NCBI RefSeq assembly: GCF_007994075.1 | Contig: NZ_VIWU01000001.1 | Coordinates: 1,674,001 to 1,738,000, forward strand | Reading direction: 5' to 3' | Origin: Pseudonocardia hierapolitana | GTDB lineage: Bacteria; Actinomycetota; Actinomycetes; Mycobacteriales; Pseudonocardiaceae | DNA: 64,000 nucleotides | Shown here: positions 59,158-63,474 of the stretch, piece after piece | Position numbering within the stretch: position 1 is the stretch's first letter | Layout: each line of letters opens with the position of its first letter | Position numbers and translations under genes: made by a program | Notes under the pieces: model-generated | Told to the model about the DNA's origin: nothing | Database searches by the model: none | The model's input: only the letters and a program-made list of their open reading frames with translations

Positions 59158-61554
59158 TCACCGCGGCGCCGGGAGTGGGGAGCCGCGGGAGACGAGCTGC
59201 AGGTCCTCGTCAACGGGCCGCCCTACCAGCGCGATGTCCCCGGCGGTGTCGGTGCGGCGCACCGCGGCCCCGGCCCGCTCGAGGCCGCCGATCAGGCCGG
59301 GGTCGGGGTGGCGGTAGCGGTTGCCTGCGCCGACGCTCACCAGCACCGCGCGGGGGGACACGGCGTTGAGGAACTCCACCGACGTGTACCGGCTGCCGTG
59401 GTGTGGCATCTTCAGCACGTCGGCGCGCAGGTCGGCGCCGGAGGAGAGCAGGTCGGCCTGCGCGGCGAGCTCCACGTCGCCGGTGAGCAGGACCGTGCCG
59501 GCGGGGGTGCGGGCACGCAGCACCAGCGAGCCGTCGTTGACCGCCGTGCCGTCCTCGCCGTCGACGAATGCCGCGGGGTGCAGCGGGCCGAGCACGTCGA
59601 TGGCGAGCGCCGGCCATGTCAGCCGCCTGCCGGCGGCGAGCGCGACGAGCGGCACGCCGACGCCCGCGGCCGTGTCGGCGACGTCTCGCAACGCCCACCC
59701 CGGCTCCCGCACCGGGCCGACCGCCACGCCGCCGACCGCCCGGCCGCGCAGCGCGCCCTCGAGACCGGCGACGTGGTCTGCGTGCAGGTGGCTGAGCACG
59801 AGCAGCGCGATCCCCTGCACGCCGAGCCGGTCGAGGCACGCGTCGACCGGGCCGGCGTCGGGACCCGCGTCGACCAGCACGACCCAGCCGGGCCGGCCCG
59901 TGGCGAGCACGATGGCATCACCCTGGCCGACGTCGCAGGCGACCACCGCCCATCCGGGAGGCGGCCACCCCGGCGGCACGATGCGCGTGGGCACCAGCAC
60001 GAGCGCGAGCCCCAGTGCAACGGCGACGAGCAACGCACGCCACCGCGGGGAGCGGCCGAACCACAGCAACCCCAGCACCAGCAGACCCAGCAACACCGCG
60101 CCCGGTAGCCCGTCGGGCCAGCCGAGCACCGCACCCGGGACGGCCGCGGACCGGTCGGCCACCAGCACCAGCCACCCGACGGCGGGCCCGGCGGCCCACG
60201 CGCACACCTGCGCCGGCAACGCACCGAGCGGCGAGAGCACAGCGGCCAGCACGCCCAGCACGGTGGCCGGGGCGACGGCGGGAACGGCGAGCAGGTTGGC
60301 GGCCACGGCGACGGGGCTCACCTCACCGTTCAGCCCGGCGACCAGCGGAGCGGTGGCGAGGAACGCCGCCGCCGGCACGGCGAGCGCCTCCGCCATCCAC
60401 CGCGGCACGCCGCGGCGCTGCAACGCGACCGACCAGCCCGGGGCGAGCAGCACCAGTGCGGCGGTGGCCAGCACCGACAGCGCGAACCCGGGGTCGACGG
60501 CCAGCGCCGGATCGGCCAGCAGCAGCACCAGCACCACCGCCGCCAGCGCGGGAACCGCGGACCGTCCCCGCCCCATCGCCAGCGCGAGCAGCACGACGGC
60601 CGCCATCGCCGCCGCGCGCACGACGCTCGGGGACGGCCGCGCGAGCACCACGAACCCGAGGACGGCGGCCGCGCTCACAGCGGCGGTCAGGCGGGGATCG
60701 GCCCGCAGCAGGCGCAGCAGCGCGAGGACCGCGCCGGCCACGATCGCGAGATTCGCCCCGGACACCGCGAGAAGGTGGCTGAGCCCCGCAGCCCGGAAGT
60801 CGGCCTCGACCTCAGCGGTGAGGAGGCTCGTGTCGCCGACGGCCAGCCCCGGCAACAGCCCACCCGGTGCCGGCGGAAGCACCTGCGCGGCCTCTCGCAG
60901 CCCGGCCCGCAGCCCGCCGGCGGCGTGCTGCCACCACGGCGGCGCCGAGACCTCCTCGGGCGGGCCGCGGACCCGCAACGCCGCGACCGTGAGATCCCGC
61001 CGTCCCGCCGGGGCGAGCAGCCCGTGACCGGTGACGGCCTGTCCGGGGAGCAGCGCCGCCCATTCCTCGGCGGGCGCGATCAACAGCACCCGGCCACCGG
61101 CTGCCCAGCCGGAGTCGCCGACGTCGGCCCGCAGCAACTCGGCCGGCACGAGCACCTGGCTCGCCTCCCCGGGCCGGGCGCCGTAGCCCGGGCTCCGCAG
61201 CGGCCGCGGGTCGTCGGCGACGACCACCCGCACGCTCGCGGCAGCGCCTCGTTCGGCCGGCGTGCGGAGCGGGTGCCGGTCGACCAGCAGGGTGTGGGCC
61301 GTGACGACGAGCGCGGCAGCCCCCGCACAGCCGCCGGCCGCGAGCACCCAGGCCGCTCCGCGGCGCCGGACCACCGACACCCCGGCGAGCAGCGCGCACG
61401 CGACCAGTACGGCCACACCCGCGACCGGGCCGAGCCCGATGCCCAGCAGCACGACCGCCCACACCGCGACAGCCGCGGGCACCAGCCGCAGGTCGGGTGG
61501 CCGCGGCTGCGCCTGGTCGAGGTCGGGAGTCGGCGAGCGGGCGGGGAGCGTCAC
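59158..61554 (-). CDS. comEC: DNA internalisation-related competence protein ComEC/Rec2
   Basis: A 798-residue inner-membrane channel protein for DNA uptake. The N-terminal domain (about 1-220) has two membrane segments and a beta domain. The competence channel (about 240-500) includes GLSHLLAVSGANLAIVAGAV, the family signature. The C-terminal metallo-beta-lactamase-like domain has WAVVACDVGQGDAIVLATGR, LVLSHLHADHVAGLEGALRG (the metal site) and VLKMPHHGSRYTS. GTG at 61552-61554 is supported by its spacing to a -10 and upstream box identical to that of comEA. In relatives holA follows directly; here about 100 bp of unassigned DNA and remnants follow. Confidence 0.95.
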   Translation of the reverse strand: MTLPARSPTPDLDQAQPRPPDLRLVPAAVAVWAVVLLGIGLGPVAGVAVLVACALLAGVSVVRRRGAAWVLAAGGCAGAAALVVTAHTLLVDRHPLRTPAERGAAASVRVVVADDPRPLRSPGYGARPGEASQVLVPAELLRADVGDSGWAAGGRVLLIAPAEEWAALLPGQAVTGHGLLAPAGRRDLTVAALRVRGPPEEVSAPPWWQHAAGGLRAGLREAAQVLPPAPGGLLPGLAVGDTSLLTAEVEADFRAAGLSHLLAVSGANLAIVAGAVLALLRLLRADPRLTAAVSAAAVLGFVVLARPSPSVVRAAAMAAVVLLALAMGRGRSAVPALAAVVLVLLLADPALAVDPGFALSVLATAALVLLAPGWSVALQRRGVPRWMAEALAVPAAAFLATAPLVAGLNGEVSPVAVAANLLAVPAVAPATVLGVLAAVLSPLGALPAQVCAWAAGPAVGWLVLVADRSAAVPGAVLGWPDGLPGAVLLGLLVLGLLWFGRSPRWRALLVAVALGLALVLVPTRIVPPGWPPPGWAVVACDVGQGDAIVLATGRPGWVVLVDAGPDAGPVDACLDRLGVQGIALLVLSHLHADHVAGLEGALRGRAVGGVAVGPVREPGWALRDVADTAAGVGVPLVALAAGRRLTWPALAIDVLGPLHPAAFVDGEDGTAVNDGSLVLRARTPAGTVLLTGDVELAAQADLLSSGADLRADVLKMPHHGSRYTSVEFLNAVSPRAVLVSVGAGNRYRHPDPGLIGGLERAGAAVRRTDTAGDIALVGRPVDEDLQLVSRGSPLPAPR

Positions 61555-61561
61555 GCGTCCG

Positions 61562-61640
61562 ACGCTAGGAGCGGTCGGGGGCGGTGGGGCGACCTCGCCC
61601 GAACCTGTGGATGGCCGAACCCCGAGGTGGACAACTCGCC
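61562..61640 (-). promoter_or_regulatory. comEC promoter: leaderless -10 plus 36-bp upstream box
   Basis: On the minus strand TAGCGT (61567-61562) ends seven bases before the GTG, the layout of a leaderless transcript. The box at 61640-61605 reads GGCGAGTTGTCCACCTCGGG and then GTTCGGCCATCCACAG; 32 of 36 bases match the box before comEA, and its distance to the start (50 bases between) is identical. TTGTCCACC and CCATCCACA resemble DnaA boxes. Confidence 0.7.
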
Positions 61641-61786
61641 GCCCCCGCTCGCCGGATCGTTCGAACCGTCGGTCCCCCCGGCCACACTGGACACCGGAGG
61701 GCGGCGCCGACACTGATCACCCCAACCGCGGCGGCCCGCCCCGGGTCGTGCCCGGTGTGGCTGAATCCCCGGGAGTACCGAAGATC

Positions 61787-62320
61787 GTGAACCGACGCCG
61801 GCACCGGACGTCCGTACCTCCGGCGATGGCGATCGGAATCGCCGCGGTCGTGCTGTTCGTCGCAGGCGTCGGGATCGCCGTTCTGGTCGGCGGCGTCGAC
61901 GCCACGCCGCAGTGGATGCGGACGATGGCGGTCTTCCTCGCCGTGGGCCTCGGGATGGCCTACGTCCTCGGCACGGCGGAGTGGGCCATGGACGTGTGGA
62001 TCATGAAGCGGGCATGTGCGCACATCGACGCAGGCCGGTACGACGACGCCGCCGGGAAGCTGCAGGTGTACGTGAAGCAGCTCGAGAAGATGGCTGGGAC
62101 GTACGACCCGCTCACCCTCCGCTGGACCTTCACGCTCGCCCACGTGCTGCTGCACACCGGACAGCGGATGCGGGGGATGGCGCTGCTCGCGCTCGTGATC
62201 GACGGCCAGCTGACGGTGCTGGGTGCGGACCACCCGGAGACGCAGCGGTCGCTCCGGATGCTGGAGCGCCACACCGACTTCACCGCGCCGATCGCGCCGA
62301 TCGACGCCTGGTGGCGGTGA
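61787..62320 (+). CDS. Small membrane protein with two N-terminal membrane segments and TPR-like tail
   Basis: A 177-residue protein, VNRRRHRTSVPPAMAIGIAA. Two membrane segments (about 14-37 and 47-68, AVFLAVGLGMAYVLGTAEWA) are followed by a helical TPR-like part (ACAHIDAGRYDDAAGKLQVY; LRWTFTLAHVLLHTGQRMRG), ending PETQRSLRMLERHTDF. No named family. It is divergent from comEC, 232 bp away, and convergent with comEA. The GTG start at 61787 is the best of several. Confidence 0.7.
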   Translation: MNRRRHRTSVPPAMAIGIAAVVLFVAGVGIAVLVGGVDATPQWMRTMAVFLAVGLGMAYVLGTAEWAMDVWIMKRACAHIDAGRYDDAAGKLQVYVKQLEKMAGTYDPLTLRWTFTLAHVLLHTGQRMRGMALLALVIDGQLTVLGADHPETQRSLRMLERHTDFTAPIAPIDAWWR

Positions 62321-62392
62321 ACGACCGGGTGCTGCAGGAGCTGGACCCGGCTGGTGGCGGGTGGCAGCACAGCCGCCGTCCGTGGCCGATCG

Positions 62393-63388
62393 TCACACCA
62401 CCACCAGCTCCCGAAGCTGCGCGAACCGCCGCTCCCCGATGCCCTCGATCTCCCGCAGCTGTTCCACCCGGGAGAAGCGGCCGTGGCGCGTGCGCCACTC
62501 GAGGATCCGCTGCGCGGTGACCGGACCGACGCCGGGCAGCGCGTCGAGTTGCTCGACGGTGGCGGCGTTGAGGTCGACCTTTCCCACCGGAGCACTCCCG
62601 GCCGCCGGCGAGCCGATGCCCGGTGCCGGGTTCGCGGCGGCATCCGGTGCGGGCGGAACCCCCACGGCGACCTGCTCGCCGTCGGCCACCCGGCGCGCCA
62701 GGTTGAGCGTGGAGAGATCGGTGCCCGGGAGCGCGCCACCGGCCGCGTCGAGCACGTCGGCGACGCGCGCGCCCTCCGGCACCTCGACCAGGCCGGGCCG
62801 GTGGACCTTGCCGGACACGCTCACCACGAGCGGGGCGGGCGGTGCAGCCGGGGCCGCAGCGGTGGTGGCGGCCGCCGGAGCGGGCGCCGCCGACGCGGCG
62901 GTCTCGGCCGCGGACACGGCGACGGCCGGCAGGTCGGGTACCGGCTCCGCGCGTGGACGCTCGAACCAGACCCCCACCGCCGCCACCACGGCGGCCACCG
63001 CAGCCACGAGCGCGAGCGCGGTGGCACCGGGCCGGCCGGGGTCGATGCGCGCCTCGCGCCACGACGCGGGCGCCAGGCGGCGCAACGCCGCACCGACTCG
63101 ACCTGGCGGCTCCGCCGTGGAGTCGAACGGGCCATCCGCTCCGACATCGGCGCGATTCTCGTCCGGCGCGAGGCGCTCCAGCGGCCGGCGCGGGCCCGCC
63201 CGCGGCTGCGCATCGGGCATGCCGGCCAGCAGCATCGGCACCGTGGGCGGATCGAGCCCGCTTCGCCCGCTCGGCGCGCCTCCCGGGCGAGGTGGCGGCC
63301 AGACCCCGCCGGAACCGAGTGCGCCGGCCTCGGGCGTACCCGCCGGCTCGGGAGATGCGGGCAGGACGAGGGATTCGGATCTCGTCAT
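62393..63388 (-). CDS. comEA: Competence protein ComEA (DNA receptor)
   Basis: A 331-residue membrane-anchored DNA-binding protein. A long Pro/Gly-rich cytosolic N-terminus (about 1-125) is followed by one membrane segment (about 128-150, ATALALVAAVAAVVAAVGVW), an SLBB domain (about 205-265, VVSVSGKVHRPGLVEVPEGA) and a C-terminal helix-hairpin-helix pair (about 272-331, VDLNAATVEQLDALPGVGPV; RVEQLREIEGIGERRFAQLR) that grips DNA. ATG at 63386-63388 is fixed by a leaderless -10 and box shared with comEC. Operon order degV-comEA-comEC on the minus strand. Confidence 0.94.
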   Translation of the reverse strand: MTRSESLVLPASPEPAGTPEAGALGSGGVWPPPRPGGAPSGRSGLDPPTVPMLLAGMPDAQPRAGPRRPLERLAPDENRADVGADGPFDSTAEPPGRVGAALRRLAPASWREARIDPGRPGATALALVAAVAAVVAAVGVWFERPRAEPVPDLPAVAVSAAETAASAAPAPAAATTAAAPAAPPAPLVVSVSGKVHRPGLVEVPEGARVADVLDAAGGALPGTDLSTLNLARRVADGEQVAVGVPPAPDAAANPAPGIGSPAAGSAPVGKVDLNAATVEQLDALPGVGPVTAQRILEWRTRHGRFSRVEQLREIEGIGERRFAQLRELVVV

Positions 63389-63395
63389 GGGTTCG

Positions 63396-63474
63396 ACGCT
63401 AGGCCGGCGAAGGCGCGGGGCACGGATGTCTTGCTGAGCTGTGGATGGCCGGGATCCGAGGTGGACAACTCGCC
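63396..63474 (-). promoter_or_regulatory. comEA promoter: leaderless -10 plus 36-bp upstream box
   Basis: TAGCGT (63401-63396 on the minus strand) ends seven bases before the ATG, in the context CCTAGCGTCGAACCCATGAC. The 36-bp box at 63474-63439 reads GGCGAGTTGTCCACCTCGGA and then TCCCGGCCATCCACAG. Position and sequence match the comEC promoter. Confidence 0.7.

Follow-up and report, generated by a model that had tools for sequence, protein, structure and literature searches.

Two head-to-tail half-sites, placed at a fixed distance from a -10-like hexamer, recur in front of comEA, comEC and a limited set of further genes of Pseudonocardia hierapolitana and are conserved in its relatives. The element (hereafter the box) is very probably the operator of a competence (natural transformation) regulon in this organism and, in varied form, in many Actinomycetes. 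We propose that a protein, presumably one factor common to all sites, binds the two half-sites, 17-20 bp apart, upstream of promoters consisting of a -10 (TAGCGT or the weaker CANNNT/GANNNT) with no visible shared -35. Once bound, the protein would activate genes for DNA uptake (comEA, comEC), for the Flp/Tad pilus (the SAF/CpaB-like gene, ssd-tad, prepilin peptidase) and for the handling of imported strands (ssb, comM, dprA, recA), together with those for a wall hydrolase and for nuclease-like proteins. Leaderless starts would serve comEA, comEC, SAF and the nuclease-like genes, and at recA the box would add to a PafBC-like damage promoter.

The box in front of comEA and comEC

The window, that is, the whole stretch of 64,000 nucleotides analysed, ends with the minus-strand genes degV, comEA and comEC, the latter two each preceded by a box (Table 1) in which two TCCAC-core halves follow each other head to tail with a 20-bp step. 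The half-site reads gTTGTCCACAg in most relatives and TTGTCCACC and CCATCCACAG at both com genes here. A recount gave the same figures as the sequence-only reading, which had claimed 32 of 36 identical bases between the boxes, 50 bases from the box end to the start codon in both genes, and a TAGCGT seven bases ahead of each start codon. The 19-mer GGCGAGTTGTCCACCTCGG has two exact copies in the window; with up to three mismatches allowed, 0.05 copies are expected by chance, and two were reached in one of 100 shuffles. Besides the box, the segment 61560-63480 contains one family of direct repeats of at least 14 bases, a 73% pair. The observation of a repeat ahead of comEA and comEC is thereby confirmed as exact and beyond chance.

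Table 1 Features of the com region (window coordinates) and genes standing behind the box in the genome
Feature	Position	Strand	Basis or remark
comEA box, 36 bp	63439-63474	minus	sequence; among 10 exact genome-wide matches
comEA box, distal half TTGTCCACC	63460-63468	minus	sequence
comEA box, proximal half CCATCCACAG	63439-63448	minus	sequence
comEA -10-like hexamer TAGCGT	63396-63401	minus	37 bases after box, 7 bases before ATG
comEA, 331 aa, SLBB + helix-hairpin-helix (HHH_3)	62393-63388	minus	Pfam; ATG from 63388
comEC box, 36 bp	61605-61640	minus	sequence
comEC box, distal half TTGTCCACC	61626-61634	minus	sequence
comEC box, proximal half CCATCCACAG	61605-61614	minus	sequence
comEC -10-like hexamer TAGCGT	61562-61567	minus	37 bases after box, 7 bases before GTG
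comEC, 798 aa, Competence + Lactamase_B	59158-61554	minus	Pfam; GTG from 61554
Target: comEA			Pfam
Target: comEC			Pfam
Target: CpaB-like SAF gene			TIGR03177 pilus_cpaB 63.9 bits, below cut-off 71; PF08666 SAF above cut-off
Target: ssd, then two T2SSF proteins			TIGR03815 (ssd); T2SSF one above, one just below cut-off; tad-cluster-like
Target: prepilin peptidase			Peptidase_A24
Target: yraN, comM, dprA			PF02481 (dprA)
Target: SSB gene (ssb)
Target: M23 peptidase
Target: three nuclease-like genes	L022:5032-6021, L026:5349-6245, L023:6153-7059

A plus-strand frame (about 61826-62320, about 164 aa) sits between comEA and comEC and had no match in a Pfam search; that it split a comEA-comEC operon may be the reason why comEC owns a separate box.

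Sites across the genome and the genes behind them

The pattern TTGTCCAC-N15-TCCACAG has 10 exact sites in the genome of 8.86 Mb. Spacers of N11-19 were allowed, yet all 10 have N15, and the backward-read control gave 1 match against the 10 forward ones; with up to two mismatches, 15 sites stand against 2 for the backward-read pattern. The non-exact sites include 4620295- (one mismatch) and that of the SAF gene (two mismatches), while three two-mismatch sites (5458707-, 7477630- and 7649519+), none with the hexamer described below, were set aside as probable chance matches. The organism's recA (L364) is preceded by a degenerate copy, whose distal half is TTCAC and whose step is the same 20 bp.

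Target genes were assigned from their translation, Pfam and NCBIfam (Table 1), and in this genome the site recurs ahead of several separate operons for uptake, pilus formation and recombination. Two of the nuclease-like targets show weak DUF559 or MTES_1575 matches under the cut-offs, and the third (site 7056071-), with no Pfam or NCBIfam match, was grouped with them by eye; by eye, nuclease-like genes stand behind boxes in the relatives G115 and G078 as well. The tenth exact site (4196513-; G000:C1:4196513-4196542, L027) is a perfect box near ppx with no clear target gene.

The gene classes are those of the com and tad systems of M. luteus (comEA/EC, Flp pilus, SAF/CpaB, TadZ), where they are needed for or tied to transformation: comEA and comEC are reported as essential and loss of the SAF/CpaB-like protein as cutting transformation 10^4-fold (parts of PMC8467076), and the tad loci are likewise described as essential (parts of PMC12849477). 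The sequence-only reading had seen a dedicated competence-gene operator with two head-to-tail DnaA-box-like parts. Evidence from the whole genome and from other species speaks for such an operator, but the set of sites is broader than the com genes and takes in pilus, ssb, recA and nuclease-like genes.

Promoter geometry and alternative origins of the box

Counting from the end of TCCACAG at 13 sites (the 10 exact ones, 4620295-, SAF and recA), a NANNNT hexamer lies exactly 37 bases after the box in 12, and no other offset between 0 and 89 has it at two or more of the 13. Given a NANNNT background of 0.016 (155,000 bases of the organism's own DNA), 12 of 13 at one preset offset corresponds to P ~4e-21. 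It should be noted that the SAF and recA sites were partly recognised by eye and that the offset was suggested by comEA and comEC; among the sites chosen by the box alone, nine of 10 have the hexamer, 4196513- being the exception, and when comEA and comEC are left out, seven of eight still do (P ~2e-12). The hexamer reads TAGCGT or TAACGT at comEA, comEC, SAF and recA; elsewhere it is CANNNT or GANNNT.

A -10 only a few bases ahead of the start codon, as expected of leaderless messages, is present at comEA and comEC of the window and, as a leaderless TANNNT at comEA, in 34/40 loci of the family and 20/40 of the class; at the three nuclease-like genes the hexamer lies six bases ahead of a possible start codon. 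The earlier suggestion of leaderless messages therefore fits the spacing at comEA and comEC, and we infer leaderless starts for these two, SAF and the nuclease-like genes, but it does not extend to ssb, tad, recA and the prepilin peptidase, which have no -10 close to the start codon and look leadered. Counted from the comEA start codon (+1), the two halves fall near -76 and -55, positions from which an activator can assist polymerase at promoters of the class I type. This position suggests activation rather than repression; against plain activation, a mutation of a DNA-binding protein raised com expression in M. luteus (parts of PMC8467076).

That the box belongs to a DNA-damage promoter of the PafBC or LexA kind is, in our judgement, very improbable. 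PafBC promoters, which are RecA-independent, have the form TTGTCRGTG-N8-TANNNT and thus a TANNNT -10 like the boxed ones. recA is itself boxed, and 16 of the 30 boxed recA promoters among the matches listed combine the box with TGTCRGT or YGTCGGTG, which we take to be a PafBC-like motif, 7-9 bases from TAGCGTCG. The same motif is found in 0/43 comEA/comEC and 0/34 SAF promoters among these matches, and unlike the box, which ends 37 bases before the -10, it adjoins the -10. The half-sites occupy roughly -51 to -80, whereas PafBC works via a -26 promoter motif (parts of PMC11804915). Since the motif occurs at recA yet at none of the 77 com and SAF promoters, the box appears to be an element distinct from the PafBC one, and recA possibly responds to both.

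We give still less credence to a neutral origin, in which a repeat or a recent duplication merely spread to these places. A few relatives do have many copies, some of which are alike for tens of bases past the box. What recurs in the genome of P. hierapolitana, however, is the pair of halves with the +37 hexamer, the stretch that separates box and hexamer being different from site to site, in agreement with the earlier statement that no recent duplication of the whole region is involved. Moreover, the same genes are boxed in other genera and families.

Conservation among Actinomycetes

The box pattern with a spacer of N11-19 is found in 146/150 genomes of the family (reversed-pattern controls: 0-2 per strand), and ComEC in 148/150. 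Of 40 fetched comEA-comEC regions, which cover 39 genera and do not include the window genome, 32 carry a relaxed box ahead of comEA; the remainder of that strand gave a single further hit in all these regions. TANNNTC lies in the expected interval in 31 of the family comEA loci. Six of the eight loci lacking the relaxed box keep a TCCAC 44-47 bases ahead of the -10. Degenerate comEA boxes, recognised by reading the sequences, occur in G122, a member of the window's genus, and in genus g42; the idea that g42, with 0-1 strict boxes, might be free of competence genes was ruled out by its ComEC and this degenerate box.

The proximal half was scored at comEA loci with a leaderless TANNNT, chosen regardless of TCCAC (34 of 40 in the family, five lacking the HHH motif and one the leaderless -10; 20 of 40 in the class, 12 and eight lacking these, respectively). 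TCCAC starts 44-47 bases ahead of the -10 in 32/34 family loci, 27 of the 34 also having the distal half at 62-65 bases, and 44-46 bases ahead in 13/20 class loci; the proximal TCCAC is missing in the other 7/20. Where class loci have the proximal and another TCCAC (six cases), the steps are 11, 19, 26, 29, 29 and 30 bp, and the family locus L118 has 30, which hints, in few cases, at whole helical turns.

In front of the yraN operon (yraN-comM-dprA) a relaxed box (N9-19) was found in 24/30 loci, taken from 46 genomes searched and including the organism's own, as against 0/30 on the other strand and 0/30 in other intervals. The recurrence in relatives by which the sequence-only reading wished its box to be judged was thus largely found: the box is in place ahead of comEA in most genomes tested and also at the dprA operon and recA, save that, in the two genomes inspected from the window's own genus, it is degenerate at comEA (G122) and no relaxed box was found at yraN (G004).

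Named genomes were scanned with the composite pattern TGTCCACN{12,16}TCCACAGN{35,41}TAGCGTCG, which, by demanding TAGCGTCG, is restricted to strong -10s. The scan gave at least 120 sites in at least 119 stretches, 80 of them listed by name and mostly from Pseudonocardiaceae. Genes were assigned from frames starting within 350 bases, by blastp against the proteins of P. hierapolitana and the recA of G115. Among the 120 matches listed, 107 head comEA (42), SAF (34), recA (30) or comEC (1), and 13 are unmatched. The matched sites beyond Pseudonocardiaceae include Micromonospora, Salinispora, Geodermatophilaceae, Rhodococcus, Frankia and Nakamurella. The one comEC site belongs to Pseudonocardia sp. 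CNS-004, which also has a comEA box; among the matches listed, only this genome and that of the window have a separate comEC box. By eye, and outside the 107, L262 is SAF, L182, L206, L219 and L258 have comEA-like starts and L247 is comEC-like, while the frame behind the box at L156 and L249 has no clear identity. All three Actinoplanes sites listed (L158, L187, L200) precede WXG100-like or unclear short frames, and the two from Nocardia a ribokinase-like gene (L225) and an unclear frame (L155), instead of com, SAF or recA.

Four of the 150 family genomes are rich in boxes (53-86 sites). G115 has 86 and G119 33, and about five of 20 stretches sampled from these two show a credible gene behind the box. 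Many of their boxes (L060-L071 in G115, L072-L079 in G119) have no good frame behind them, but a TANNNT at 36-39 bases followed by a GC-rich run or hairpin; they are perhaps small RNAs or spread elements, and Rfam at gathering thresholds gave no match in 16 boxed loci of G115, G119 and G148. With so many sites in a few genomes and so few credible genes behind the sampled ones, the box is not competence-only.

Relation to known systems

Competence-regulon operators are known from other phyla, namely ComK boxes, cin/ComX boxes and CRP-S sites. The box resembles them in being one short site common to uptake, pilus, ssb, dprA, comM and recA genes, and differs in sequence, phylum and apparently factor, in its head-to-tail, DnaA-box-like halves and in that several -10s abut the start codon. 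M. luteus is reported to be without ComK, ComX and CSP-type signalling, its competence regulon is called currently unknown, and the upstream signals or regulatory cascade are described as yet to be identified (parts of PMC12849477, 2026). Amino acids and (p)ppGpp act on its comEA/EC promoter, according to a paper from which the word 'motif' is absent (PMC6667448). An open-access literature search, outside of which most subscription papers fall, brought up no such box or regulon that we recognised, and a search for the string TTGTCCAC no title on actinobacterial competence among the matches listed. While competence regulons as such are already known, neither this operator nor the geometry and gene set that go with it in actinomycetes therefore appears to have been described.

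To the question of how actinobacteria control competence, the box contributes a sequence-predicted regulon, names of genes and a bait for the regulator. It suggests a coherent, regulated uptake programme in many actinomycetes, antibiotic-producing genera included, and would tie the nuclease-like proteins to this programme, a tie to competence that would be new.

Candidate binding proteins

The likeness of the half-sites to DnaA boxes makes DnaA one candidate binder, which we consider about as likely as a dedicated factor. Quite possibly, then, the box is a DnaA-box pair through which the replication initiator activates competence genes and ties uptake and recA to the state of replication. Tentatively, this may be taken further: DnaA, bound head to tail on one face of the DNA, would directly activate the competence regulon of Actinomycetes (recA, ssb, dprA, the Tad pilus and nuclease-like proteins), and DNA uptake would be coupled to the state of chromosome replication. 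It could equally well be, with a probability that we put not far from even, that a dedicated competence activator recognises direct repeats of TTGTCCACAG, a candidate type being the small HTH_17 (excisionase-like) protein Mlut_14660 of M. luteus.

The sequence of the half-sites points towards DnaA. S. coelicolor and M. tuberculosis are listed with TTGTCCACA as their high-affinity DnaA box (PMC4285127, Table 1), and the proximal halves at comEA in the family are TTGTCCACAG in 20/31. The intervals behind dnaA in 30 family genomes, six of them with at most one TCCAC, contain 186 TCCAC sites and 23 strong boxes; the latter have a G before (19/23) and after (14/23) them like the competence halves, and same-strand TCCAC pairs there peak at 20 bp (21/88). 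Half-sites of most relatives hence match the actinobacterial DnaA box and the origin boxes including their flanks. The halves of P. hierapolitana itself (TTGTCCACC, and CCATCCACA at comEA) deviate from the DnaA box, but its origin boxes are degenerate as well, both sharing the TCCAC core, and CCATCCACA, which the comEA box has in its proximal half, is present in two copies in its origin interval. Genus g42 shows the deviant half TTGTCCCCA both at comEA (2/2) and at the origin (3/3), which is weak evidence because TTGTCCCCA is also common at the origins of other families; G251, on the other hand, has TCCCC halves at comEA and none among its scored origin boxes. The genome encodes one Bac_DnaA_C protein, and with it the search for a DnaA paralogue as binder ended without a candidate.

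The arrangement of the sites is less typical of DnaA. Unlike DnaA-regulated promoters, the boxed ones have a fixed pair spacing, a fixed -10 distance, a competence gene set and an extended distal half. The spacing is base-exact in the genome of P. hierapolitana, which DnaA need not require; the step of competence pairs is 20 bp here and 17-19 bp in the family, against 20 and 22 bp for origin pairs. The distal half extends past the DnaA 9-mer as CAC-N-TC(G/A) in 12 of the 13 sites of this genome, whereas CAC-N-TC is found in 2/10 TCCAC sites of the origin interval. Moreover, the word 'competence' is absent from a review of DnaA as a transcription factor (PMC8203912). The strict spacing, the extension and the narrow gene set would suit a dedicated factor. 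So would genetic data from M. luteus: almost all mutants selected for raised comEA/EC expression were changed in or near Mlut_14660, its R64W allele, put back alone, restored the phenotype, and the gene, which is oriented divergently to that for SAF, resisted deletion (parts of PMC8467076). An HTH_17 protein encoded beside the SAF gene thus affects the comEA/EC promoter, which keeps a dedicated factor in play, although one mutation at the Mlut_14660 locus, 13-M89, left expression unaltered (parts of the same paper). Further points against such a factor are that no regulator was recognised among the gene calls around the sites of P. hierapolitana and that the half-site is hard to distinguish from local DnaA boxes.

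In the dnaA-dnaN interval of P. hierapolitana (L080), three boxes with the TCCAC core follow each other head to tail in 22-bp steps.
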